Source of the DNA: Thauera propionica
GTDB lineage: Bacteria > Pseudomonadota > Gammaproteobacteria > Burkholderiales > Rhodocyclaceae
Direction of reading: 5' to 3'
Length of the DNA stretch: 64,000 nt
Assembly: GCF_002245655.1 (NCBI RefSeq)
Contig: NZ_NOIH01000003.1
Coordinates: 310,001-374,000 of the forward strand
In this document: positions 621 to 15,357 of the stretch, in pieces
How the letters are laid out: every line of letters begins with the position of its first letter
Numbering within the stretch: the stretch's first letter is position 1
The notes under the pieces: model-generated
The model's input: only the letters and a program-made list of their open reading frames with translations
Told to the model about the DNA's origin: nothing
Database searches by the model: none
Program-made: the position numbers and the translations under genes

Positions 621-1505
621 ATGAGCAATACGCCGAACACGCCTTCGCTTCCCTCCATGGTCTGCGGCCTGATCGGCTCGGGCATCCAGGCCTCGCTGAC
701 GCCGGCAATGCACGAGCAGGAGGGCGAAGCCCAGGGCTTCCGCTACGTCTACAAGAAGATCGATCTCGACCCGCTGGGCCTGACGGCCGACGACCTGCCC
801 GAGTTGCTGACCGCCGCCCGGCGCATGGGCTTCTCGGGACTGAACATCACCTTCCCGTGCAAGCAGGCGATCGTGCCGCTGCTCGATGAATTGTCGGACG
901 AGGCGCGTGCACTCAATGCGGTGAACACCGTGGTGATCAGGGACGGCCGCCTGATCGGACACAACACCGACTGCTCGGGCTTTGCCGAGGGTTTCCGCCG
1001 CGGCCTGCCGGGCGCGAAGATGGACAGGGTGGTGCAGCTCGGTGCCGGCGGCGCCGGTGCCGCGGTGGCGCATGCGGCGCTCGGGCTGGGCGCGCGGCAA
1101 CTGACGGTGTTCGACATCGACCCGGCGCGCGCGCGCGAGCTCGCGGCCAGCCTGTGCGCGCGCTTCGGCGCCGGGCGCTGCATCGCGGGCAATGACCTCG
1201 CGACCGCAATGGCCGAGACCGACGGCCTGATCCACTGCACCCCCACCGGCATGGCCAAGCTGCCCGGCCTGCCGTTGCCGGCCGAGCTGATCGACGGCCG
1301 CATCTGGGTGGCGGAGATCGTCTACTTTCCGCTCGAGACCGAACTGCTGCGCGTGGCCCGCGCCAAGGGCTGCCGCACGCTCGACGGCGGCGGCATGGCG
1401 GTGTTCCAGGCCGTCGGCGCCTTCCGCCACTTCACCGGCCTCGAACCCGACGCCGAACGCATGCGCGCGCACTTCCTGTCGATGGTCGCGAACAAGAAGG
1501 ACTGA
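621..1505 (+). CDS. qsuD: Quinate/shikimate dehydrogenase, QsuD type (AroE family)
   Basis: Oxidises quinate to 3-dehydroquinate and/or shikimate to 3-dehydroshikimate in the cytosol. The 294-residue protein has the substrate motif S25-L-T27-P-A-M-H in place of the usual SLS of biosynthetic AroE, the NITFPCK motif with catalytic Lys81, and NTD with catalytic Asp117. The dinucleotide loop GAGGAG (141-146) is followed by an acidic residue (Asp165) after strand 2, which points to NAD rather than NADP and so to a catabolic role. The C-terminal TGLEPD and the TPAMHE segment resemble Corynebacterium QsuD closely. It is followed within 40 bases by usp and then quiC, suggesting one operon. Which of the two substrates is preferred cannot be read from sequence. 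Confidence 0.88.
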   Translation: MSNTPNTPSLPSMVCGLIGSGIQASLTPAMHEQEGEAQGFRYVYKKIDLDPLGLTADDLPELLTAARRMGFSGLNITFPCKQAIVPLLDELSDEARALNAVNTVVIRDGRLIGHNTDCSGFAEGFRRGLPGAKMDRVVQLGAGGAGAAVAHAALGLGARQLTVFDIDPARARELAASLCARFGAGRCIAGNDLATAMAETDGLIHCTPTGMAKLPGLPLPAELIDGRIWVAEIVYFPLETELLRVARAKGCRTLDGGGMAVFQAVGAFRHFTGLEPDAERMRAHFLSMVANKKD

Positions 1506-1510
1506 TCACC

Positions 1511-1933
1511 ATGTACAAGCACATCCTGATTCCGATCGACGGCTCCGACATGTCGACCGACGCCGCCAGGCGCGCCCTCGACTTCGCCAAGATCCACGGA
1601 GCCCGCGCCACCGTGCTCTACGTGCTGACCGACAGCGCCGTGGCGGCCGGCCTGGGCAAGTCCACCCGCGACGAGGCCGCCCGCACGGAGATGGCGCAGG
1701 GCTTCCTGCGCCCGGTCGGCGCGCTGGCGCGACAGGCCGGAGTCGAGGCCGAGTGCTTCTACGTCGAGAGCGACTCGCCCGCCGACGAGATCGTCGAAAC
1801 CGCACGCAAACGCGGCTGCGACCTGATCCACATGGCCTCGCACGCCCGCCGCGGCGTCGTCGAGCTGTTGCTCGGCAGCGTCACCGCCGACGTCCTCAAG
1901 CGCACCAGCGTACCGGTGCTGGTGGTGCGCTGA
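1511..1933 (+). CDS. Universal stress protein, UspA family
   Basis: A 140-residue single-domain Usp protein. It begins with the usual YKHILIPIDGS strand and ends with a nucleotide-loop region read as ARRGVVELLLGS before the final VPVLVV strand. The first glycine of the G-2x-G-9x-G(S/T) ATP motif is Ala here, so ATP binding is likely but not certain. It lies 5 bases after qsuD and 35 bases before quiC, so it is probably co-transcribed with the quinate genes. Its role there is unknown. Confidence 0.9.
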   Translation: MYKHILIPIDGSDMSTDAARRALDFAKIHGARATVLYVLTDSAVAAGLGKSTRDEAARTEMAQGFLRPVGALARQAGVEAECFYVESDSPADEIVETARKRGCDLIHMASHARRGVVELLLGSVTADVLKRTSVPVLVVR

Positions 1934-1968: not shown

Positions 1969-3888
1969 ATGCGTCGTTCCATCGCCACCGTGTGCCTCAG
2001 CGGCACGCTCGAGGAAAAGCTCGAGGCCATCGCCTCGGCGCGTTTCGACGCAGTCGAGATCTTCGAGAACGACTTCATCAACTACCACGGCACCGCGGCC
2101 GACGTGCGCCGCCTGTGTCACGACCTGGGCCTCGGGATCGACCTCTACCAGCCCTTCCGCGACTTCGAAGGCGTCAGCGACGCCCAGTTCAGGCGCAACC
2201 TCGATCGCGTCGAGCGCAAGTTCGACATCATGGAAGCACTGGGCGCCCCGCAATTGCTGGTGTGCTCGAGCTGCGCGCCGGACGCCATCGCCGACGATGC
2301 GCGCTCGGCTGCCCAGCTCTACGAACTGGCCGAGCGCGCTGCCCGCCGCAACATCACGATCGGCTTCGAGGCGCTGGCGTGGTCGCGCCACATCCGGCAC
2401 TACCAGCACGCCTGGAAGATCGTGAAGGAGGCCAACCACCCGCACCTCGGCATCCTGCTCGACAGCTTCCACATCCTGTCGCTGGGCGACGACCCCGCCG
2501 CCATCGCGGACATTCCGGGCGACAAGATCGCCTTCCTGCAACTGGCCGACGCCCCCTACAAGGTCATGGACGTGCTGCAGTGGAGCCGCCATTTCCGCTG
2601 TTTCCCGGGACAGGGCAATTTCGACCTGGTCACTTTTCTGGAGAAGGTCCTGCTCGCCGGCTACACCGGGCCGCTGTCGCTCGAGGTGTTCAACGACCAT
2701 TTCCGCGCGGCGCCGACCCGCCCGACCGCAATCGACGCCTACCGCTCCCTGCTGTACCTGGAGGAAGCCGTGGAACGCCGGCTCGCCGCCCCCGGCGATG
2801 AGGTCTTACTGAACCAGGCACGCGAGGCCGCCGCTGCGCGCGTCGAACTGTTCAGCCCGCCCCGCATCCCGGCACTGGACGGCCTGGCCTTCATCGAGTT
2901 CGCCGTCGACACCGAATCCGAACGCGCGCTGGCCCAGGTGCTGGACGCGCTGGGCTTTCGCCGCGCCGGCGAGCACCGCTCGAAGGCCGTCACGCTGTAC
3001 CGCCAGGGCGACATCGACATCATCCTGAATGCGGAGCCCGGTTCCTTCGCGCGCAGCCATTTCATGCAGCACGGGCCCTCGATCTGCGCACTGGGCATCG
3101 CCACCGAAGACAGCCTGCGCGCCCTGAACCGCGCCACCGCCTTCGGCTGCCCCCGCTTCGAAGGCCGCATCGGCCCGAACGAGCTGAAGATTCCAGCGAT
3201 TCGCGCACCCGACGGCAGCCTGATCTACTTCGTACCGTCCACTCAAGGCTCGAAGCGGCTGTTCGAGATCGACTTCCTGCTCGAGGACGAGACCGCAAGC
3301 GCGCTCTCGCCCACCGACCTCCAGGCGGTCGACCACATCGCGCAGGGCCTGCCGCAGCTGCGCCAGGATGCCTGGACCCTGTTCTATCGTGCCATCCTCG
3401 GCGGCGAGCCCGGCGAAAGCATGGACCTCGTCGATCCCTACGGCCTGATCAGCACCCGCGGGGTCGCAACGGCAGACCGCAAGCTGCGCTTCGTGCTCGA
3501 CGTGTCGGACAGCGACACCACCACCACCGCGCGCACCATCACGCAACTGGCGGGCGCCAGCGTGCACCACGTGTCCTTCAGCTGCGCCGACATCTTCGCC
3601 ACGGTGGAGCGGCTGCGTGCCAACGGCGTCAGCTTCATCCCGGTGTCGCCGAACTACTACGACGACCTGCCGACCCGCTTCGTGCTGGACGACGCGCTCG
3701 TCGCCCGCATGGCTGCACTCGGCATCCTGTATGACGCGACGGCCGAGGGCGAGTACTTCCATGTCTACACCCAGGTGTTCGCCGAACGCTTCTTCTTCGA
3801 GATCGTGCAGCGCAACGGTGCCTATGACGGGTACGGCGCAGCGAACGCGCCGGCGCGCATGATGGCCCACCTGCGCACGAACCGCTGA
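1969..3888 (+). CDS. quiC: 3-Dehydroshikimate dehydratase fused to an HPPD-like domain
   Basis: Converts 3-dehydroshikimate to protocatechuate, linking hydroaromatic acids to ring cleavage. The 639-residue protein has an N-terminal AP-endonuclease-type TIM barrel (about 1-280) with metal ligands Glu134, Asp165, Gln191 and Glu239, the same four as in Pseudomonas QuiC1. The C-terminal vicinal-oxygen-chelate half (about 300-639) resembles 4-hydroxyphenylpyruvate dioxygenase and keeps a possible iron triad His456, His534 and Glu611. The ATG at 1969 is chosen because the barrel starts there (MRRSIATVCLSG); the frame is open further upstream but overlaps usp. It is the last gene of the plus-strand operon. 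The role of the HPPD-like half is not settled by sequence. Confidence 0.92.
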   Translation: MRRSIATVCLSGTLEEKLEAIASARFDAVEIFENDFINYHGTAADVRRLCHDLGLGIDLYQPFRDFEGVSDAQFRRNLDRVERKFDIMEALGAPQLLVCSSCAPDAIADDARSAAQLYELAERAARRNITIGFEALAWSRHIRHYQHAWKIVKEANHPHLGILLDSFHILSLGDDPAAIADIPGDKIAFLQLADAPYKVMDVLQWSRHFRCFPGQGNFDLVTFLEKVLLAGYTGPLSLEVFNDHFRAAPTRPTAIDAYRSLLYLEEAVERRLAAPGDEVLLNQAREAAAARVELFSPPRIPALDGLAFIEFAVDTESERALAQVLDALGFRRAGEHRSKAVTLYRQGDIDIILNAEPGSFARSHFMQHGPSICALGIATEDSLRALNRATAFGCPRFEGRIGPNELKIPAIRAPDGSLIYFVPSTQGSKRLFEIDFLLEDETASALSPTDLQAVDHIAQGLPQLRQDAWTLFYRAILGGEPGESMDLVDPYGLISTRGVATADRKLRFVLDVSDSDTTTTARTITQLAGASVHHVSFSCADIFATVERLRANGVSFIPVSPNYYDDLPTRFVLDDALVARMAALGILYDATAEGEYFHVYTQVFAERFFFEIVQRNGAYDGYGAANAPARMMAHLRTNR

Positions 3889-3938: not shown

Positions 3939-4835
3939 TCAGCCCTTCGGCAGTGAGGGGCGCGGCGTCCGGCGGCGTGGCAGATCGATGTGACGCAGGC
4001 GGGCGAGCAGCCAGTGCAGCGAGTCGCGCGCCTGTTCGGCCACGAAGGCGGCCGGCAGCTGGGCATGGTCGGCATTCGCGGCGTTGAGGCAGAAGCCGCC
4101 GTGGAAGCCGATCACCCGCAGACGGCGAATCAGTTCCAGCAGGGCTTCGGCGCTGCTGCCGTCGCCGGGGAATACGCGCACGTAGTCCTGCGTCCGCTCC
4201 CCTGCGGCGGGTGATGCGGCGTCGCCCGCGCGCATCGCGATCGTGTCGCTCAGGCCGACCAGGAACAGGCGGTCTGCATAGCAGCGATCGAGCGCATCGA
4301 GCCCGCCATCGCCAGTGAAGAGATGGCCGGTGTCGATGGCCATGCCAAGGTTGGCGCGATCGGCCGCATTCACGCAGGCCTCGGCGCTCACCACGTCCGC
4401 CGCGACGCGCGAGCCGGGCTGCGCCTGATAGGCGATGTCGATACCCTTGGGCACGGCCAGCGTGGCGAGCTTGGCCAGGTCGCGCGCCACGTGCTCGGCG
4501 TCGTCGCTGGCCTCCGCGACGGTGCTGGCCGTGACCAGCAGTAGCGGCGCCCCGACGGCACGGCACAGGTTGAGCAGCCCCTTGGCGATGTTCACCTTGT
4601 ACTGGTGCAACGGCCCCGACAGTCCTTCGTAGTCCTGCAGTTGGCGCAAGGCCTGCACCCGGACGCCACTGTGGCGCACCAGCGCCACCGCCTCGTCCAC
4701 CCCGCGCGGATGGCTCACCAGATCCGCAGCCGACACCACGACCTGCCGGAAGCCGCTGGCCATGGCCGCTCCCAGGCGTACCTCGAGCGGGCCGGCCATG
4801 GCGCTGGTGTCGAGCGCGACAGAATCGAAATCCAA
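3939..4835 (-). CDS. QuiC-like TIM-barrel protein with degenerate metal site
   Basis: A 298-residue sugar-phosphate isomerase/epimerase-fold protein that aligns along its length with the barrel half of the neighbouring QuiC. Of the four QuiC metal ligands only Asp168 remains; the Glu134, Gln191 and Glu239 equivalents are Gln137, Gly194 and Asn251. The RxFPGxG segment is kept. Dehydratase activity by the QuiC mechanism is therefore doubtful, and a different reaction or a non-catalytic role is possible. The TTG start is supported by GGAGGA just upstream; an ATG 12 codons later is the alternative. It follows the HPPD-like gene by 36 bases, so the two are likely co-transcribed. No function is assigned. 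Confidence 0.82.
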   Translation of the reverse strand: MDFDSVALDTSAMAGPLEVRLGAAMASGFRQVVVSAADLVSHPRGVDEAVALVRHSGVRVQALRQLQDYEGLSGPLHQYKVNIAKGLLNLCRAVGAPLLLVTASTVAEASDDAEHVARDLAKLATLAVPKGIDIAYQAQPGSRVAADVVSAEACVNAADRANLGMAIDTGHLFTGDGGLDALDRCYADRLFLVGLSDTIAMRAGDAASPAAGERTQDYVRVFPGDGSSAEALLELIRRLRVIGFHGGFCLNAANADHAQLPAAFVAEQARDSLHWLLARLRHIDLPRRRTPRPSLPKG

Positions 4836-4871
4836 GACGTCCTCCGCAGGAAATGACGAGCGTCGCCGGGC

Positions 4872-5735
4872 TCAGCCCGCGGCGAACCGGCTGGCGACGA
4901 GTTCGAAGGTGACGCTGCCGAGATAGACCTGCGTCAGCGCGCCCTTCTCGCCCGGATGCAGTGCCCCCTCGTCGATGAAGACCACGCCGCGCTCGCGCAA
5001 CACCCGCATCGCCTCCAGCACGTCGGGCGTCCCCAGGCCGATGCGTACCAGGCCATCGTCCCAATGGATGTCCTCGGCCCCTTCCGGCGGCTCGATAAGC
5101 TGCAGGTAGAAGCGGCCACAGGGGCTCTGCAGAAGCGTGCCCTTGGGCAGGATGCCGACAAAGTCCGCCTCGGTCAGCTGCCGGAAGCCCAGCATCTGAC
5201 GGTAGAAATCCACCCACTCGCTGCTGCGGAAGGCACCCACCGCCTGCACCAGACCGAAGTAATGCAGCCCGGCAAGGGCAGGCGGGTTCGAGTCCGTGCC
5301 GGGCAGCGGCACGAAGTCGACGTCGTAGATCGAGAAGTCCTTGTAGCGGTCGACGAAATAGATCGCGCTTTCGCCGCTGCCGAGGATGCCCGGAATGTTC
5401 AGCTCCATCGCTGCGGCGCGGCGCGGCACCTCCCATGCACCGGCATCGAGCGAATGACGCATGGCGTAGGCGGCGTCACGCACGCGGAAGGCGACCGCAG
5501 AGACGAAGGTGGCTGACGGATCGGCCCCGCCGGGTTCGGCATTGACGATGAGATTCATCGCCCCCTGGCGGTAGAGCACGACCTCGCGCGAGCGGTGGCG
5601 CGCGATCGGCGCGAAGCCGAGCCGCTGCAGCACGCCGCCCAGCGCCTGTGGCCGGCCGGTGACGAATTCGATGAATTCCACCCCGTCGATACCGAGGGGG
5701 TTGAGCGGTTCTGGAACCAGGTCTCGCGCAGTCAT
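4872..5735 (-). CDS. HPPD-like (VOC) protein resembling the C-terminal half of QuiC
   Basis: A 287-residue protein with two vicinal-oxygen-chelate modules. It aligns with residues of about 300-639 of the QuiC at 1969-3888; both share features such as HRS, LYRQG, NAEPG, NIPG-like and IYFV segments. In the expected iron triad His158 and Glu278 are present, but the middle His is Arg231. It is the first gene of a pair with the QuiC-like barrel at 3939-4835, so the pair reproduces QuiC as two proteins in reversed order. A dioxygenase activity is doubtful without the second His. A structural or substrate-binding role is possible. Confidence 0.82.
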   Translation of the reverse strand: MTARDLVPEPLNPLGIDGVEFIEFVTGRPQALGGVLQRLGFAPIARHRSREVVLYRQGAMNLIVNAEPGGADPSATFVSAVAFRVRDAAYAMRHSLDAGAWEVPRRAAAMELNIPGILGSGESAIYFVDRYKDFSIYDVDFVPLPGTDSNPPALAGLHYFGLVQAVGAFRSSEWVDFYRQMLGFRQLTEADFVGILPKGTLLQSPCGRFYLQLIEPPEGAEDIHWDDGLVRIGLGTPDVLEAMRVLRERGVVFIDEGALHPGEKGALTQVYLGSVTFELVASRFAAG

Positions 5736-5908: not shown

Positions 5909-7234
5909 TCAGGATACGGCCCACAGCGCCACCAGCGAGATGCTCGGGAAGAACACCAGCAGGAAGATGCGGATGATGTCCGAGGCGAGGAAAGGCAGCA
6001 CGCCGCGGAAGATCGTCGCCATCGGCACGTCCTTCGCCACCCCGTTGATGATGTAGACGTTCATCCCCACCGGCGGCGTGATCAGGCCCACCTCCATCAC
6101 CACCAGCGCGACCATGCCGAACCAGATCGCCTTCTCTTCCATGCCCAGGCCCCAGTAGTCCAGGCCCAGGATAATCGGCAGGAAGATCGGCACCGTCAGC
6201 AGGATCATCGACAGGCTGTCCATCACGCAGCCCAGCACCAGGTAGATGAGGATGATCGCGAACAGCACCGTGAAGGGACCGAAGCCCATCTCCTGCACCC
6301 AGGCCGCGGCCTCGGCCGGCAGTTGCGACAGCGCCATGAACGAGTTCAGCGTATCGGCCCCGAGCAGGATCAGGAACATCATGCCGGTGCCCGTGGCGGT
6401 GCCATAGATGCACTCCATGAAACCGCGCCCTTTCAGGCCGCCCGACCGCCACGCAGCGATACCGGTCGCCAGCGCACCGACGGCCGCGGCTTCGGTCGGG
6501 GTAAAGAGACCGCCGTAGATACCGCCGATCACCACCAGGAAGATCAGCAGCACCGGCCAGGTATCGATCACCGTCCTGAGGCGCTCGGCCCAGCTGTGCT
6601 TGGGCGAGCCCGGACCGCCTGCAGCGGCATCGACGCGGCACACGATGGCAATCACCAGCATGTAGCCGACCGCCGCCAGGATGCCCGGGACGAAGGCGGC
6701 CAGGAACAGCTTGGCGATGTTCTGCTCTGCCAGGATGGCGTAGATCACCAGCGGCACCGACGGCGGGATCAGGATGCCGAGCGTGCCGCCGGCAGCCAAC
6801 GAACCCGTCGCCAGGCTGGGCTTGTACTGATGGCGCTTGAGCTCGGGCAGCACCACGTGCGACATCGTCGCGGCGGTTGCCAGCGAGGAGCCACAGATCG
6901 CGCCAAAGCCGGCGCACGAGGCCACGCCCGCCATGGCCATGCCACCCTTCCAGTGGCCGATGAAGGCATTGCCCGCCTTGAACAGCGCACGCGACAACCC
7001 GCCGTGGGTGGCGAACTGCCCCATCAGCAGGAAGAGCGGCACCACCGACAGGTCGTACAGCGAGAAACGGCCATAGGGCGCGTTCTTCAGATAGGCGAGC
7101 AGCGGGTCCAGCCCCGACACCCAGATGTAGCCGATGGCACCGGTGAGGAACATCGCGATGCCGATCTGCACGCGCAGCGCCAGCATCGACATCATCACCA
7201 CGCCCATGATCAGGCCGATCGTCGTTCCACTCAT
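5909..7234 (-). CDS. dctM: TRAP transporter large permease, DctM type
   Basis: The 441-residue large membrane subunit of a TRAP transporter, which couples solute import to an ion gradient. It starts with hydrophobic segments and carries family motifs such as GGTLGILIPPS (mid-protein), GLFTPTEAAAVGA and LITPPVGMNVY near the C-terminus. The ATG at 7234 overlaps the dctQ stop by four bases (ATGA). A longer frame open upstream lies within dctQ and was not used. With dctQ and the dctP at 7849-8874 it forms a complete transporter downstream of a LigAB pair, which suggests an aromatic or hydroaromatic acid as substrate. Confidence 0.93.
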   Translation of the reverse strand: MSGTTIGLIMGVVMMSMLALRVQIGIAMFLTGAIGYIWVSGLDPLLAYLKNAPYGRFSLYDLSVVPLFLLMGQFATHGGLSRALFKAGNAFIGHWKGGMAMAGVASCAGFGAICGSSLATAATMSHVVLPELKRHQYKPSLATGSLAAGGTLGILIPPSVPLVIYAILAEQNIAKLFLAAFVPGILAAVGYMLVIAIVCRVDAAAGGPGSPKHSWAERLRTVIDTWPVLLIFLVVIGGIYGGLFTPTEAAAVGALATGIAAWRSGGLKGRGFMECIYGTATGTGMMFLILLGADTLNSFMALSQLPAEAAAWVQEMGFGPFTVLFAIILIYLVLGCVMDSLSMILLTVPIFLPIILGLDYWGLGMEEKAIWFGMVALVVMEVGLITPPVGMNVYIINGVAKDVPMATIFRGVLPFLASDIIRIFLLVFFPSISLVALWAVS

Positions 7235-7755
7235 GCTGCCGCTCCCGAGCGCAGTTCCTGGACAAAGGTGTACAGCGCCGCGATGCCGAGCAGCACGAAG
7301 GCCGGCACCACCGGGACATAGCCCCACCACACCGGCAGCGAGATCACCATCGAGGTCTCGCCGTATTCACGCATCTCCAGCATGCCTTCCCAGATCCGCC
7401 AGGCCAGCACGAAGGCGCAGAACGCCATGAGCAACGCCGCGATCGAATCGAGGAGACGCTTCAGGCCGGCCGGGGCCCACAGGGTGAAGAAATCCACGAA
7501 CACATGACCCTTCTTCAGCTGGCAGTAGGGCAGGCACATCGCGATCCCCATCGCCGAGAGCATCTGCACCAGTTCGTAGTCGCCCGGCACCGGCTCTCCG
7601 ATCGTGGCACGTCCGACCACGCTCACAACCGACATCACCGACTCGATGCAGAACATCACGCCGGCGAGAATCGCCATCGCCGCGCAGGCCCATTCGATAC
7701 TCTTGCCAACCGGCCCTGTCGGAGCCACATACGGTTGGTCCATCGCCTCCGCCAT
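7231..7755 (-). CDS. dctQ: TRAP transporter small permease, DctQ type
   Basis: A 174-residue small membrane subunit with about four hydrophobic helices, as usual for DctQ. The ATG at 7755 is preferred: AAGGAG lies seven bases upstream. A GTG three bases earlier would add one residue. It overlaps dctM by four bases, indicating translational coupling, and is separated from dctP by a 93-base gap that contains a strong stem-loop. Confidence 0.88.
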   Translation of the reverse strand: MAEAMDQPYVAPTGPVGKSIEWACAAMAILAGVMFCIESVMSVVSVVGRATIGEPVPGDYELVQMLSAMGIAMCLPYCQLKKGHVFVDFFTLWAPAGLKRLLDSIAALLMAFCAFVLAWRIWEGMLEMREYGETSMVISLPVWWGYVPVVPAFVLLGIAALYTFVQELRSGAAA

Positions 7756-7794
7756 CACACGTCTCCTTCCGGCATTTTTCAGGCTCTGATCAAC

Positions 7795-7848: not shown

Positions 7849-8874
7849 TTACTTGGAGTACTGGGTCACGAGCGCATTGGCGTCGTCGAACAGCTTCTGG
7901 CCATCGACGCCCTTGGAGGAAATCTCCTTGATCCACTCCTCGGCGACCGGCTTGGAAGCCGCCTGCCACTTGGCCATCTCTTCGGCCGGCAGGGCATAGA
8001 CGGTGTTGCCGCGACCGACGGCAGCCTCGCGGCCACCCGCGTCCGCATCCTTGAACTGCGCCGACACCCAGGCCGAGGTCTCGCGGCCGCTGTTGTCGTC
8101 GATGACCTTCTTCAGTTCAGGCGACAGGCTGTCGTACTTCTTCTGGTTCATGACGAAGATCATCGTCGCGGTGGTCATCGCATGCGACCCGCCCGCTTCG
8201 GCATGGAACTTGGTCAGTTCGTGCGTCTTGGTCGCGGGGACGACTTCCCACGGGATCAGTGCGCCTTCGATCACGCCCTTGGACAGGCTCTCAGCCATCT
8301 GCGGCACCGGCATGCCGACCGGAGTCGCGCCGAGCGCGGCCAGCAGCTTGGTGCCGAGGCGCGACGGCGCACGCACCTTCATGCCCTTGAGGTCTTCCAG
8401 CGTCTTCACTTCCTTGTCGCGGAAGTGCAGCACGTTCGGACCGTTCACCCAGGTCGCGATCGGCTTCATGCCGGCGAATTCCTTCATCGAGTGCGCCTGC
8501 ACGAAGTCCCACATGGCGCGCGACGAGGCCTCATGGGTGGTGGTGATGAAGGGCAGCTCGAAGACTTCGGAGGTCGGGAAACGGCCCGGGGTGTAGCCCG
8601 GCAGCGTCCACACGATGTCGGCCACGCCGTCGCGGACCTGGTTCAGCAACTGCGGCGGCGTGCCACCGAGACTCATTGCCGGATAGATCTGGCACTTCAT
8701 CTTGCCCTGCGACTCGGCAGCGATCTTGTCGCACCACGGGCTGATGAACTTGGTATGGGCGGGAGAAACCGGCGGCAGGAAATGCGCCACCTTCAGGATG
8801 ACTTCCTCGGCCTGGGCAACGGTCGGGACCAGAGCGGCGGCAGCAAGACCCAGCGCCAGCGAACGAATCTTCAT
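7849..8874 (-). CDS. dctP: TRAP transporter solute-binding protein, DctP type
   Basis: A 341-residue periplasmic binding protein with a clear signal peptide (KIRSLALGLAAAALVP, cleavage after AQA). The ATG at 8874 is preceded by GAGGAG at good spacing. The segments LGGTPPQLLNQVRDG, ADIVWTLPGYTPGRFP and VRAPSRLG are shared almost word for word with the binding proteins at 13277 and 14332. The Arg of the VRAPSR segment matches the conserved carboxylate-binding Arg of the DctP family. It lies 248 bases downstream of ligB in a LigAB-TRAP run, so a carboxylated aromatic or hydroaromatic ligand is inferred. Confidence 0.92.
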   Translation of the reverse strand: MKIRSLALGLAAAALVPTVAQAEEVILKVAHFLPPVSPAHTKFISPWCDKIAAESQGKMKCQIYPAMSLGGTPPQLLNQVRDGVADIVWTLPGYTPGRFPTSEVFELPFITTTHEASSRAMWDFVQAHSMKEFAGMKPIATWVNGPNVLHFRDKEVKTLEDLKGMKVRAPSRLGTKLLAALGATPVGMPVPQMAESLSKGVIEGALIPWEVVPATKTHELTKFHAEAGGSHAMTTATMIFVMNQKKYDSLSPELKKVIDDNSGRETSAWVSAQFKDADAGGREAAVGRGNTVYALPAEEMAKWQAASKPVAEEWIKEISSKGVDGQKLFDDANALVTQYSK

Positions 8875-9011
8875 AGATGTCTCCTCGTGATGTTCTTGCA
8901 ACAAGGAAGTCTGCGGCACGGAACACCACAAGTCTTCCAGACATCACGAGTCTCGCGCGTTGGCCCGGCGGGAAAAAGTCCGGATAAACACTATCAGTTA
9001 TAAAATTTTGA

Positions 9012-9122: not shown

Positions 9123-9965
9123 TCAGGCCGCAACCTCCATCACCATCAAGCCCGCGGCCGTGTTGGAAATGGGGATGTGGTAGTTCGAATGCACCAACCC
9201 CACCCTGCCCGGCAGGGCGGCCCGGGCTGCCACCCACATCAGCAACTCGACGCCCTGCGTGCCGGTCTTCTCCACGATCTGCTCGTTGCTGAACTGGGTC
9301 ACCCACTCCGGGTCCGAGACGAGGCTGTCCATGAAGGCCTTGTCGAACTCCGGATTGACGAAACCCGCACGTTCGCCGTCGAGCTGGTGCGACAGCCCAC
9401 CGGTACCGATCACGAGGACGCGCAGATCCTTGTCCCACGACCCGATCGCTTCGCCAAGCGCCTTGCCCAGCTTGTAGCAGCGCTTCGCGCTCGGCAGCGG
9501 ATACTGCACGGTGTTGATGCACACCGGCACGGTCGGCACCGGGCACTTCTCGTCGTTCGGCCACAGCAGCTTCAGCGGCAGCGAGTAGGCATGATCCACG
9601 AGCATTTCCTGGCAGGTGGTGAGGTCGAACTCCCTTGCCACCAGCTCGTTGATGACATGCCACGAAAGCTCCGGGTGCCCCTTGAACGGCGGCAGGGTCG
9701 GGATGCCCCAGCCCTCGTCGGCGTTGTGGTACTCGGGTGCCGCGCCAACGGCGAAGGTCGGCATCTTGTCGAGGAAAAAGTTGAGCCCGTGGTCGTTGTA
9801 GAGCACGACCGCAACGTCGGGCCTGACCTTGTCGAGCCAGGCATGAACCGGCGGAAAGCCGTCGAAGAAGGGTTTCCAGTACGGGTCGTCCTGCAGCTTG
9901 CCGGCGATGGCGCGGCCGATGGCCGGGACGTGCGAAGTGGTGATTGCGCCTACGATCTTTGCCAT
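9123..9965 (-). CDS. Protocatechuate 4,5-dioxygenase-type beta subunit (first copy)
   Basis: The 280-residue catalytic subunit of a class III extradiol dioxygenase of the LigB family. Iron ligands His12 (TSHVPAIG), His59 (YNDHG) and Glu240 are present, and so is catalytic His193 (GTGGLSHQL). It follows its alpha partner by 16 bases. It is clearly diverged from the LigB at 25238-26092 in the same window, which lies in the protocatechuate operon. This copy may therefore act on another catechol such as gallate, a methylgallate or a related acid. Context with dctPQM supports uptake and ring cleavage of one compound. Confidence 0.88.
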   Translation of the reverse strand: MAKIVGAITTSHVPAIGRAIAGKLQDDPYWKPFFDGFPPVHAWLDKVRPDVAVVLYNDHGLNFFLDKMPTFAVGAAPEYHNADEGWGIPTLPPFKGHPELSWHVINELVAREFDLTTCQEMLVDHAYSLPLKLLWPNDEKCPVPTVPVCINTVQYPLPSAKRCYKLGKALGEAIGSWDKDLRVLVIGTGGLSHQLDGERAGFVNPEFDKAFMDSLVSDPEWVTQFSNEQIVEKTGTQGVELLMWVAARAALPGRVGLVHSNYHIPISNTAAGLMVMEVAA

Positions 9966-9981: not shown

Positions 9982-10341
9982 TCAGATGCCTTTGCCCGCG
10001 GCCAGCAGCATGGCCTTGAACTCGTCCTTGCTCATCCCGGTCTGCGCGGCCCCCAGGTCCTGCACATCGAGCCCGAGGATGCCGGCGAACTTCGCGAGGT
10101 AATACACGTTGCCGCCCGCCGCCAGCAGGCCCAGCACGTTGCGCGTACGGATCGCTTCGTACTGTTCCGCATTGAGTCCGAACTGCCTGCAATAGCCCGC
10201 CTCGTCCTGGCGGAAGGCCTCACGGTTCTCGGCACTGTTAAAGGAGAAACACATCTTGTTGAGCGCATAGCCCTTCTGCGCGAGTTCGCCGTCGAACACC
10301 CGGGTGCCCGGGATCTCCAGCTTCTGCGATGCCGCGTTCAT
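9982..10341 (-). CDS. Protocatechuate 4,5-dioxygenase-type alpha subunit (first copy)
   Basis: A 119-residue LigA-family small subunit that packs on LigB and helps close its active site. It has the family features GTRVFDGELAQKGYALN near the start and NVYYLAKFAG in the middle. It is about 28 residues shorter than the second copy in this window, mainly at the C-terminus. It is the first gene of a minus-strand run and diverges from a LysR gene across an 86-base gap, so that regulator probably controls it. Confidence 0.87.
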   Translation of the reverse strand: MNAASQKLEIPGTRVFDGELAQKGYALNKMCFSFNSAENREAFRQDEAGYCRQFGLNAEQYEAIRTRNVLGLLAAGGNVYYLAKFAGILGLDVQDLGAAQTGMSKDEFKAMLLAAGKGI

Positions 10342-11333: not shown

Positions 11334-11771
11334 TCAGCGCAGCTTGCTGGCGACAAACTGCAACGCGAGGTTGTAGCCCAGGGTGCCGAAGCCGGCCATC
11401 ACCGCCTCGGCGATGTCGGACAGGTAGGAGTGATGGCGGAAAGCCTCGCGCTTGTGCACGTTGGAGATGTGCACCTCGACGAAGGGAATCGCCACGCCGC
11501 CGAAGGCATCGCGAATGGCCACGCTGGTGTGCGTGTAGGCGCCCGGGTTGATGATGACGAACTTCACACCCTCGGTGCGCGCCTCGTGGATGCGGTCGAC
11601 GATCCCGCCTTCGTGGTTGCTCTGGAAGCACTCCAGTTCCAGGCCAAGCTCCGTGGCCTGGGCACGCAGGCCGTTTTCGACGTCGGTCAGCGTGGTCGAG
11701 CCGTAGATGTGCGGCTCGCGCGTGCCAAGCAGGTTGAGGTTGGGACCGTTGATGACGAGGACTTTGCTCAT
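11334..11771 (-). CDS. aroQ: Type II 3-dehydroquinate dehydratase
   Basis: Interconverts 3-dehydroquinate and 3-dehydroshikimate, a step shared by the shikimate pathway and quinate breakdown. The 145-residue protein has the [16 protein letters not shown] start with the catalytic Tyr, the [10 protein letters not shown] segment, EVHISN with the catalytic His, and REAFRHHS. The ATG at 11771 is where the family starts; a longer frame is not needed. It follows the dctP at 11865-12878 across a stem-loop. With qsuD and quiC in the same window, it supplies the missing step from quinate to protocatechuate. Confidence 0.93.
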
Positions 11772-13276: not shown

Positions 13277-14302
13277 ATGAAGGCCCGCCAATTCGCCCTC
13301 GGTATCGCTGCCGCAGCACTCGTTCCGGGCGCCGCCCAGGCACAGGAAGTCGTGCTCAAGGTCGCCCACTTCCTGACGCCCACGACGCCGGCCCACGTCA
13401 AGTTCATCGAGCCGTGGTGCGGCAAGATCGAAGCGCAGTCGCAGGGCCGGATGAAATGCCAGCTTTATCCGGCAATGAGCCTCGGTGGCACGCCGCCGCA
13501 ACTGCTCAACCAGGTGCGCGACGGCGTCGCCGACATCGTGTGGACGCTGCCGGGCTACACGCCGGGCCGCTTCCCGATCACCGAGGTGTTCGAGCTGCCG
13601 TTCTTCAGCACGAGCTACGAAGCCACCTCGCGTGCGCTGTGGGATTTCATCGAAGGCAGCGCGGCAAGCGAGTTCGCCGGCCTGCGCCCGATCGCCACCT
13701 GGTCCGCCGGTCCCTACCTGCTCCACTTCCGCAACAAGCAGGTCAACGCGCTGGAGGACCTGAAGGGGCTGAAGGTGCGCACGCCCTCGCGCCTGGGCAA
13801 CAAGATGCTCGCCGCACTCGGCGCCACCCCGGTCGGCATGCCGGCACCGCAGATGACCGAAGGTCTTGCCAAGGGTGTGATCGACGGCGCCCTGCTGCCG
13901 TGGGAAGTCGTGCCCGCCCTGAAGATCCAGGAACTGACCAAGTACCACGCCGAGCCGACCGGCAAGATCGCGCTCAGCACGGCGACGACGATCTTCGTCA
14001 TGAGCCAGAAGAAGTACGACAGCCTGCCGGCCGACCTGAGGAAGGTCATCGACGACAACCGCGGCCGCGAAGTCTCCGCTTTCGCTGCGGGCCAGCTGGC
14101 GGAGGCCGGCAATGCGAGCCGTGACATCACGCTGAAGAACGGCAACACGGTCTACCAGCTCGCACCGGAAGAGCTCGAGCGCTGGAAGCAGACCACCGCC
14201 CCGGTCGCCCAGGAATGGATCAAGGACATGGACGCCAAGGGCCTCGATGGCCGCAAGCTGCACGACGAAGCCGCTGCGCTGGTGCAGAAGTACTCGAACT
14301 GA
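13277..14302 (+). CDS. TRAP solute-binding protein, orphan copy 1
   Basis: A 341-residue DctP-family protein with a signal peptide cleaved after AQA; the ATG at 13277 follows AACAGGAGAC. It has the same length as, and is a close paralogue of, the proteins at 7849-8874 and 14332-15357 (shared LGGTPPQLLNQVRDG, WTLPGYTPGRFP, RTPSRLGNKMLAALGATPVG). No permease lies next to it, so it may feed the DctQM at 5909-7755. It is followed at 29 bases by a second paralogue, so the two are one transcript. Different but related acid ligands are likely. Confidence 0.9.
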   Translation: MKARQFALGIAAAALVPGAAQAQEVVLKVAHFLTPTTPAHVKFIEPWCGKIEAQSQGRMKCQLYPAMSLGGTPPQLLNQVRDGVADIVWTLPGYTPGRFPITEVFELPFFSTSYEATSRALWDFIEGSAASEFAGLRPIATWSAGPYLLHFRNKQVNALEDLKGLKVRTPSRLGNKMLAALGATPVGMPAPQMTEGLAKGVIDGALLPWEVVPALKIQELTKYHAEPTGKIALSTATTIFVMSQKKYDSLPADLRKVIDDNRGREVSAFAAGQLAEAGNASRDITLKNGNTVYQLAPEELERWKQTTAPVAQEWIKDMDAKGLDGRKLHDEAAALVQKYSN

Positions 14303-14331
14303 GCGCCCCCCAACGTCCTCAGGAGACCACC

Positions 14332-15357
14332 ATGAAGATTCGCCGCATCGCCCTCGGCCTCGCCACCGCGGCGCTGGCCCCGGCCGCCGCGCAAGCGCAG
14401 GAAGTGACGCTGAAGTTCGCCCACTTCATGCCCACCACCAACCCCTACCACGTGCATGTCATCGTGCCCTGGTGCGACCGGATCGCCGCCGAATCGAAGG
14501 GCCGCATGGTGTGCCAGATCTACCCCGCCATGCAGCTGGGCGGCACGCCGACGCAGTTGCTGACGCAGGTACGCGACGGCGTGGCCGACGTGATCTGGAC
14601 CATGCCGGGCTACAACGCCGGCCGCTTCCCCAAGCTCGAAGTGTTCGAACTGCCCTTCTTCACCACCACGCCCGAGGCGACGGCCCGCGCAATGTGGGAC
14701 TTCGTGCAGAAGAACGCGCTCGACGAGTTTCCCGGCATGAAGCCGCTCGCCACCTGGACGCCCGGCGCCTACGCCTTCCACATGAACGGCAAGGAAGTGA
14801 CCCGGCTCGAGGACCTCAAGGGCGCGAAGGTGCGCACGCCCTCGCGCCTGGGCAACAAGCTGCTTGCCGCGCTCGGCACCACGCCGGTCGGCATGCCGGC
14901 GCCGCAGATGTCCGAGGGCATCGCCAAGGGCGTGATCGACGGCGCGCTGTATCCGTGGGAGTCCGTGCCCTCGGCCAAGCTGCACGAGCTGACCCGGTTC
15001 AGCTTCGATGCCAACGCCGAGTACCGCATGTCGGCCGCGACGACCATCATCGCGATGAACCGGAAGAAGTACGACAGCCTGCCTGACGACCTGAAGAAGA
15101 TCATCGACGACAGCACCGGCCGCGAGTTCTCGGCCCAGGCCGCGGCGGTGCTGCATGCGCAGGCCACCGTCGGTCGCGATCAGACCATTGCCAACGGCAA
15201 CAAGGTCTATGTGCTGCCCCCCGCCGAGGTCGAGCGCTGGAAGGCGGCGACGGCCGGCATCGCCGGCGACTGGATCAAGGAGACGAACGAGAAGGGGCTC
15301 GACGGTCAGCGCCTGCATGACGAGGCCGCCGCATTGATGGCCAGCTACTCGAAGTAA
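14332..15357 (+). CDS. TRAP solute-binding protein, orphan copy 2
   Basis: A 341-residue DctP-family protein with a signal peptide cleaved after AQA and a clear AGGAGA site before the ATG at 14332. It is a tandem paralogue of the preceding gene but differs in the pocket region (WTPGAYAFHMNGKEV in place of WSAGPYLLHFRNKQV), suggesting another ligand. It ends this two-gene transcript, which closes with a good intrinsic terminator. No permease is adjacent. Confidence 0.9.
   Translation: MKIRRIALGLATAALAPAAAQAQEVTLKFAHFMPTTNPYHVHVIVPWCDRIAAESKGRMVCQIYPAMQLGGTPTQLLTQVRDGVADVIWTMPGYNAGRFPKLEVFELPFFTTTPEATARAMWDFVQKNALDEFPGMKPLATWTPGAYAFHMNGKEVTRLEDLKGAKVRTPSRLGNKLLAALGTTPVGMPAPQMSEGIAKGVIDGALYPWESVPSAKLHELTRFSFDANAEYRMSAATTIIAMNRKKYDSLPDDLKKIIDDSTGREFSAQAAAVLHAQATVGRDQTIANGNKVYVLPPAEVERWKAATAGIAGDWIKETNEKGLDGQRLHDEAAALMASYSK

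Follow-up and report, generated by a model that had tools for sequence, protein, structure and literature searches.

Two adjacent minus-strand genes in the window, i.e. the 64,000 nucleotides of Thauera propionica DNA analysed here, encode an HPPD-like protein (HPL) and a xylose-isomerase-like barrel protein (BAR). In our reading, to which we give a probability of roughly 55%, they belong to a probable two-subunit dehydratase whose barrel has lost its own site here, where fused QuiC carries out the reaction, and which is kept as a non-catalytic pair. According to the comparisons below, HPL-BAR is a two-gene family, detected in this analysis for the most part in Burkholderiales-type bacteria, which is related to but distinct from fused QuiC, a bacterial two-domain dehydroshikimate dehydratase involved in the breakdown of plant acids. 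The window pair shows the features of this family, i.e. HPL followed closely by BAR on one strand, and Gly/Arg/Glu at the iron-ligand positions of HPL. As to what keeps the window pair, our first choice is a non-catalytic complex, followed by a relic without present function.

Both ORFs, which the first-pass annotation had already recognized as adjacent and as reversed relative to the domain order of QuiC, are indeed open over their full length (Table 1). HPL is transcribed first and lies 36 bp upstream of BAR, which starts with a TTG codon preceded by GGAGG, as read directly from the sequence. The pair is convergent with an intact fused QuiC gene, whose product has all HPPD-type ligands (His456, His534, Glu611). 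The surroundings constitute a quinate/shikimate cluster comprising genes for a quinate/shikimate dehydrogenase-like protein (SDH), a universal-stress-like protein, QuiC, a TRAP transporter, LigA, LigB, a LysR regulator and AroQ. Related genes for DctP-type TRAP binding proteins occur three times in the window (7849-8931, 13277-15357), two of them in tandem.

Table 1. Features of the HPL-BAR locus, with positions counted from the first nucleotide of the window.
Feature	Position	Strand	Basis
SDH, quinate/shikimate dehydrogenase-like	621..1505	+	NF009201, 469.8 bits, over cut-off
Universal-stress-protein-like gene, between SDH and QuiC	1511..1933	+	NF011581, 40.8 bits, below cut-off
Fused QuiC, 639 aa, intact	1969..3888	+	10/10 barrel active-site residues and 3/3 HPPD-type ligands
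BAR, xylose-isomerase-like TIM barrel (PF01261), 298 aa, metal site predicted to be inactivated	3939..4835	-	open ORF, Pfam, alignment, predicted fold
BAR Asn251, replaces metal ligand Glu239 of QuiC	4083..4085	-	alignment
BAR Gly194, replaces metal ligand Gln191 of QuiC	4254..4256	-	alignment
BAR Asp168, sole metal ligand kept (QuiC Asp165)	4332..4334	-	alignment
BAR Gln137, replaces metal ligand Glu134 of QuiC	4425..4427	-	alignment
HPL, HPPD-like protein (PF14696 + PF00903), 287 aa	4872..5735	-	open ORF, Pfam, sequence and fold matches
HPL Glu278, HPPD Glu ligand, kept; invariant in HPL alignment	4902..4904	-	alignment
HPL Arg231, replaces second HPPD His ligand; nearly invariant in HPL alignment	5043..5045	-	alignment
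HPL Gly161, replaces first HPPD His ligand	5253..5255	-	alignment
DctM, TRAP transporter large subunit; true start inside ORF, probably near 7234	5909..7330	-	PF06808, 300.1 bits
DctQ, TRAP transporter small subunit	7231..7758	-	PF04290, 82.4 bits
DctP, TRAP substrate-binding protein; true start probably inside ORF	7849..8931	-	NF037995, over cut-off
LigB, class III extradiol dioxygenase, protocatechuate 4,5-dioxygenase beta type	9123..9965	-	NF009901, 519.4 bits, over cut-off
LigA, protocatechuate 4,5-dioxygenase alpha subunit	9982..10341	-	NF009918, 196.2 bits, over cut-off
AroQ, type II 3-dehydroquinate dehydratase	11334..11771	-	TIGR01088, over cut-off

The pair had been described as a split copy of QuiC, which would imply fission and rearrangement of a fused gene. 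The two proteins do correspond to the two domains of QuiC, whose NCBIfam model ranks first for BAR and second for HPL, and one branch of the HPL tree, weakly supported (95/65), places HPL and QuiC together against 12 HPPD rows. However, identity to the neighbouring QuiC over the matched parts amounts to only 25% for BAR and 34% for HPL, the order is reversed, and QuiC forms a clade of its own with support of 100/100 in both the HPL and the BAR tree. Moreover, HPL is closer to genuine HPPD than to QuiC, both by sequence among solved proteins (7e-35 versus 2e-18) and by fold among solved structures (2e-27 versus 2e-20). A split copy is therefore very unlikely, while an ancient fission preceding the radiation of QuiC is possible, and so is a distant common ancestry of HPL with the corresponding QuiC domain. 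Recent duplication of the neighbouring QuiC gene is ruled out by the 25-34% identity and by the trees. In the HPL tree, which includes locus L021, 42 HPL rows lie on one side of a branch whose support (91/65) is not strong; in the BAR tree, which includes locus L030, the BAR rows fall outside QuiC, and those of loci L140 and L141 are separate from the other 40. With the NCBIfam model NF042435 the two window proteins score 65.1 and 71.0 bits against a cut-off of 1200, which discriminates poorly, since the intact neighbouring QuiC also misses it with 776.3 bits. This cut-off is passed by none of 399 genomes of the order, in which full-length fused QuiC matches reach 1057 bits. The fused chain that defines QuiC and QsuB is not found in the pair, which consists of two ORFs with the HPPD-like gene first.

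Aligned with QuiC, the window BAR lacks the complete ligand set Glu134, Asp165, Gln191 and Glu239: three of the four ligands are lost and only one Asp is kept, exactly as had been read from the sequence alone. A further loss that had escaped attention concerns the active-site Arg (QuiC Arg64), which is Gln67 in the window. The fold appears to be preserved. BAR passes the gathering score of PF01261 (58.3 versus 31.1 bits), and the predicted single-chain model (pLDDT 90.5) as well as the fold matches confirm a barrel, the best PDB match being 5HMQ, QuiC1 of P. putida (TM 0.81). Among solved proteins, QuiC1 is the closest to BAR by sequence and by fold. The four ligand positions are located within or directly after the last residues of predicted strands 133-137, 163-168, 190-195 and 247-250. 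Compensating ligands elsewhere in the barrel, named by the first-pass annotation as evidence that would speak against its reading, did not emerge: sequence comparison of the seven BAR rows of the Thauera/Azoarcus clade revealed no clear replacement. New acidic, His or Cys residues present in at least six of these seven barrels (positions 2, 152, 176, 185, 263, 282 and 284) show no obvious connection with the site. Judged by its lost ligands and Arg, the window BAR should no longer carry out the metal-dependent reaction.

The situation differs for HPL, whose losses are not peculiar to the window. The annotation had counted one of the three ligands as lost; Arg in place of the second His was read correctly, but Gly161 makes it two of three. 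Gly/Arg/Glu instead of the HPPD iron triad, i.e. two His and one Glu, is found in 47 of 51 HPL rows (duplicates included), also beside intact barrels, and the four exceptional rows come from a single distant genus, with two genomes that are each represented by two rows. HPL of these genomes (L140, L141) keeps the first His, with Asp or Cys at the second position and Glu at the third, and His168 of the barrel is replaced by Gln. Hence, as far as the alignment can tell, ligand loss in HPL is family-wide and without sign of decay specific to the window. The proposed parallel decay in both halves does not hold, since the barrel loss is confined to some lineages. The predicted single-chain model of HPL (pLDDT 85.7) is that of an HPPD-like protein, and the N-terminal HPPD domain is readily detected (PF14696, 135 bits); the score with TIGR01263, 83.7 bits, remains below the cut-off of 277.

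HPL precedes BAR on the same strand in all 42 loci in which both genes were called, a count that omits L021 (contig end) and L126 (both genes missed by the gene caller). According to our own start-codon calls, 39 of the 42 gaps are shorter than 150 bp and 15 are 4-bp overlaps; in three loci (L115, L116, L118) the SDH gene sits between the two. This recurrence at 42 loci, two of which (L013 and L014) are nearly the same, excludes chance pairing. Locus L013, on a Thauera phenylacetica contig, and L014, on a 'Thiobacillus' MAG contig, encode TPP enzymes that are 100% identical, and since the loci are nearly the same, the MAG contig is probably misbinned. A search for related loci yielded 39; HPL with at least 52% identity is present in 20 of them (L012-L031), while most of the others represent fused QuiC. 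HPL is present in 7 of 29 genomes of the window's genus, a sample that includes the Thauera records L012, L013 and L017, and in 19 of 399 genomes of the order, after dropping 4 of 23 that had HPPD-only matches; at E 1e-20, BAR was detected in 8 of the 199 family genomes. In each case the window's own genome is included.

This distribution bears on the idea that the pair is a regulatory or stabilising partner of the neighbouring QuiC, acting through a mixed assembly with its HPPD-like or barrel domains. All six QuiC-bearing genomes among the 29 of the genus also carry HPL-BAR, so that no QuiC was found there without the pair, and the genes in the window are adjacent and convergent. However, the pattern in the genus would be accounted for just as well by a single shared island. 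In the order sample, 12 of the 13 genomes with a QuiC match (13/399) lack the pair, indicating that QuiC generally does not need it, and in Azohydromonas (L028) QuiC is located ~43 kb away from the pair. We consider such a partnership quite unlikely. The overlap of one genome between HPL and QuiC in the order sample is about what is expected by chance given 19 HPL genomes and thus provides no sign of mutual exclusion.

What the pair does elsewhere is suggested by its intact members. Homologues with full metal sites had been named as a further finding that would contradict the first reading. For the barrel they exist, all four ligands being kept in 28 of 51 BAR rows (two genomes are counted twice, and L021 ends before the site); for HPL none was found in the 51-row alignment. 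Each genome was then searched for fused QuiC and for an acetolactate-synthase-type TPP enzyme, and a row was classified as 'neither' when its genome had no fused QuiC match and no TPP enzyme at E 1e-150 or better. In the resulting set of 41 rows, which omits the duplicates or near-duplicates L005-L011 and L014 as well as the truncated L021 and L030, the seven catalytic positions are kept in all 22 'neither' rows. With reference to the ten QuiC active-site residues listed in PMC7442255, Arg64, Glu134, Leu136, Asp165, His168, Gln191, Arg210 and Glu239 are present throughout these 22 rows, whereas Ser206 is uniformly replaced by Ala, and Leu97 by Met in three rows.

The genomic setting of these intact pairs is in line with quinate or shikimate metabolism: 20 of the 22 'neither' loci contain SDH or AroQ, and 10 contain TRAP genes. 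In the Ramlibacter loci L024, L026 and L031 the gene order is TetR, TRAP genes, AroQ, SDH, HPL, BAR, and L029 differs by lacking AroQ. The QuiC model is the only NCBIfam match of the intact L024 BAR at E 1e-8 (168 bits). Since all 22 'neither' barrels are intact and 20 of the loci carry SDH or AroQ, the pair fills the slot of a dehydroshikimate dehydratase, and intact pairs are likely to be this enzyme where neither QuiC nor the TPP enzyme occurs. A candidate protocatechuate dioxygenase, either PcaH-type or a LigB relative, was detected in 23/23 'neither', 7/12 TPP and 5/8 QuiC genomes. This count lends weak support, as no candidate was found in three of the eight QuiC genomes (G202-G204) and as some matches are weak or ambiguous: three PcaH matches are below cut-off, among them the only match of the 'neither' genome G351, and the LigB relatives, at 42-48%, could represent extradiol enzymes of another kind. 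Five control barrels of the same superfamily (cluster c25) all retain Arg64, Glu134, Asp165, His168, Arg210 and Glu239, and two of them Gln191. As other barrels thus share most of the residues, the active site indicates a working metal barrel but not its substrate. The one control barrel compared with NCBIfam, that of L119, had no match at E 1e-10. These second xylose-isomerase-like barrels (L119:1861-2733 and relatives), whose metal site is largely complete, are encoded near SDH in L018, L019, L119, L120 and L139.

Altered barrels, in contrast, coincide with alternative routes. At the seven positions, none of the 22 'neither' rows is altered as compared with 17 of the 19 rows with QuiC or the TPP enzyme, window included (16/19 when metal ligands alone are considered). 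The barrel is altered in 7/7 rows from QuiC-bearing genomes and in 10/12 rows from genomes with the TPP enzyme but without QuiC (9/12 by metal ligands alone). When the TPP gene is in or near the locus (L013, L119, L120, L127, L128, L139, L140, L141) all eight barrels are altered, and when it is elsewhere in the genome (L023, L024, L112, L138) two of four are; L024 and L112 keep intact barrels despite the TPP enzyme. Fisher's test yields p ~1e-9 if relatedness is ignored and with route classes that were defined after the gene neighbourhoods had been seen. Corrected for phylogeny, the comparison is not significant: 3 pairs remain when only supported branches are counted (7 with all branches), and none runs in the opposite direction. 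The tree requires at least five changes of state. The presence of QuiC is not a sufficient explanation of the loss, because L013 of T. phenylacetica shares the ligand letters QDGN with the window but has no fused QuiC match. The homologues point to an ancestral metal-dependent enzyme, from which the barrel loss would have arisen secondarily, later and repeatedly.

Several altered loci without QuiC (L013:10875-16512; L119, L120, L127, L139, L140, L141) adjoin the gene for the TPP enzyme and contain, in varying combinations, aldehyde dehydrogenases, citryl-CoA lyase, CoA-transferase III, SDH and dehydroquinase. We infer from this gene content a non-aromatic ring-cleavage route for quinate or shikimate. 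Five of the 12 TPP genomes scanned revealed no candidate protocatechuate dioxygenase, and none of the papers searched combines quinate with citryl-CoA lyase.

The pair might simply have become redundant beside QuiC and be slowly decaying, without any present function. Ligand sets indeed vary among close Thauera/Azoarcus relatives (QDGN, LDGS, RDES, QDES, EDGN), as expected under relaxed constraint, and HPL is restricted to the 7/29 genomes of the genus mentioned above. The seven Thauera/Azoarcus barrels form a clade (100/100) nested among intact barrels with a stem of 1.25, as compared to a stem of 0.25 for the same rows in the HPL tree, and in this clade the barrel evolves faster than HPL and QuiC. 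Pairwise dN/dS between the window and L012 is 0.115 for HPL, 0.214 for BAR and 0.123 for QuiC; within the clade the values range from 0.09 to 0.15 for HPL and from 0.12 to 0.25 for BAR, while the Ramlibacter pair L024/L031 gives 0.166 and 0.136, respectively. These ratios, for which dS is near or above 1 in several pairs, are compatible with slow decay as well as with a maintained role. Among pairs with altered barrels BAR evolves faster than HPL in 10/10, whereas it is slower in 7/8 intact pairs, the exception being L025-L125.

Nevertheless, several observations argue against a relic, which we regard as unlikely albeit second in our ranking. All seven rows of the clade have retained both reading frames intact, both genes show dN/dS values well below 1, HPL being about as constrained as QuiC, and all six QuiC genomes of the genus still hold the pair. 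A pseudogene is ruled out by the open frames and by dN/dS below 1. By these rates, purifying selection acts on both genes, and on HPL with about the same strength as on QuiC; the barrel is freed from part of its constraint but not from all of it. Of the earlier suggestion that intact frames reflect selection for a new function, the open frames and the selection stand; a wholly new activity does not follow, given the intact homologues. A retained non-catalytic or a new role for the pair is possible.

Such a new role could consist in metal-independent catalysis or isomerisation by the altered barrel together with HPL. The intact predicted fold would allow for it, and Asp168 as well as the barrel Arg corresponding to QuiC Arg210 are kept in all seven barrels of the clade, accompanied by His171 in five. 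In addition, Lys134, Asp165, Asp168, Gln191 and Asp239 (QuiC numbering) are common to the barrels of four genomes from two genera (L119, L120, L138, L139); this Lys/Asp/Gln/Asp set with its second Asp looks like a coherent altered site. However, it belongs to another clade and another gene setting, whereas the altered positions in the clade of the window differ from species to species, unlike those of a selected new site. New catalysis therefore appears decidedly improbable.

Taken together, we favour the following scenario for the non-catalytic complex. In intact members, which make up most of the family, the barrel with its full divalent-metal site very probably converts 3-dehydroshikimate to protocatechuate. 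HPL, lacking an iron site, would have no catalysis of its own and act as a subunit for assembly or ligand binding, for which QsuB of C. glutamicum offers a precedent: according to PMC7442255, QsuB without its HPPD-like domain differs in oligomer state and in product inhibition, its barrel domain retains activity on its own, and activity on protocatechuate was not detected. In the Thauera/Azoarcus lineage, fused QuiC could take over the dehydratase reaction. It presumably came first and the barrel loss followed, removing three of four ligands and the active-site Arg, after which the metal-dependent reaction would no longer be expected. The window pair most likely persists as a putative non-catalytic complex, with a role in binding a pathway acid or in stabilising another assembly. 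More speculatively, HPL-BAR could be a further two-subunit dehydratase class that became, in the Thauera/Azoarcus clade and separately in Azohydromonas, a maintained pseudo-enzyme pair, binding pathway acids and either tuning or stabilising its replacement, the fused QuiC; we offer this extended version tentatively and hold it to be rather unlikely.

Should the intact pairs be active, they would constitute a further class of dehydroshikimate dehydratase. Four classes are distinguished in PMC9324987, none of them, as described there, with two separate subunits, and no split or two-subunit dehydroshikimate dehydratase appeared in the titles and abstracts of the literature matches listed. Activity of the intact pairs would also bear on the puzzling role of the HPPD-like domain, which is kept here as a separate protein without its iron site. 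Loss of the barrel site next to an intact fused enzyme, or next to a different pathway, provides a natural experiment on the transition from enzyme to pseudo-enzyme.

Compared with known systems, HPL-BAR shares its two folds and the quinate/shikimate cluster setting with QuiC1 (5HMQ), QsuB and the proteins described by NF042435, but differs from QuiC and QsuB in that the two parts are encoded by separate genes, arranged in the opposite order. HPL is ~65 residues shorter than the HPPD-like part of QuiC, mainly in the C-terminal half, and lacks two of the three iron ligands. Whereas intact BAR relatives keep nine or eight of the ten QuiC active-site residues, the window BAR is without three of four metal ligands and the active-site Arg. 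With HPPD (1CJX, 9QMF; TIGR01263) HPL has the N-terminal domain and the overall fold in common, but not the complete iron site nor the full-length C-terminal half. The single-domain barrels of the same superfamily, i.e. AsbF (3DX5), described as a single-domain dehydratase in PMC9324987, and IolI (1I60), are likewise fold matches of BAR, albeit weaker ones than QuiC.
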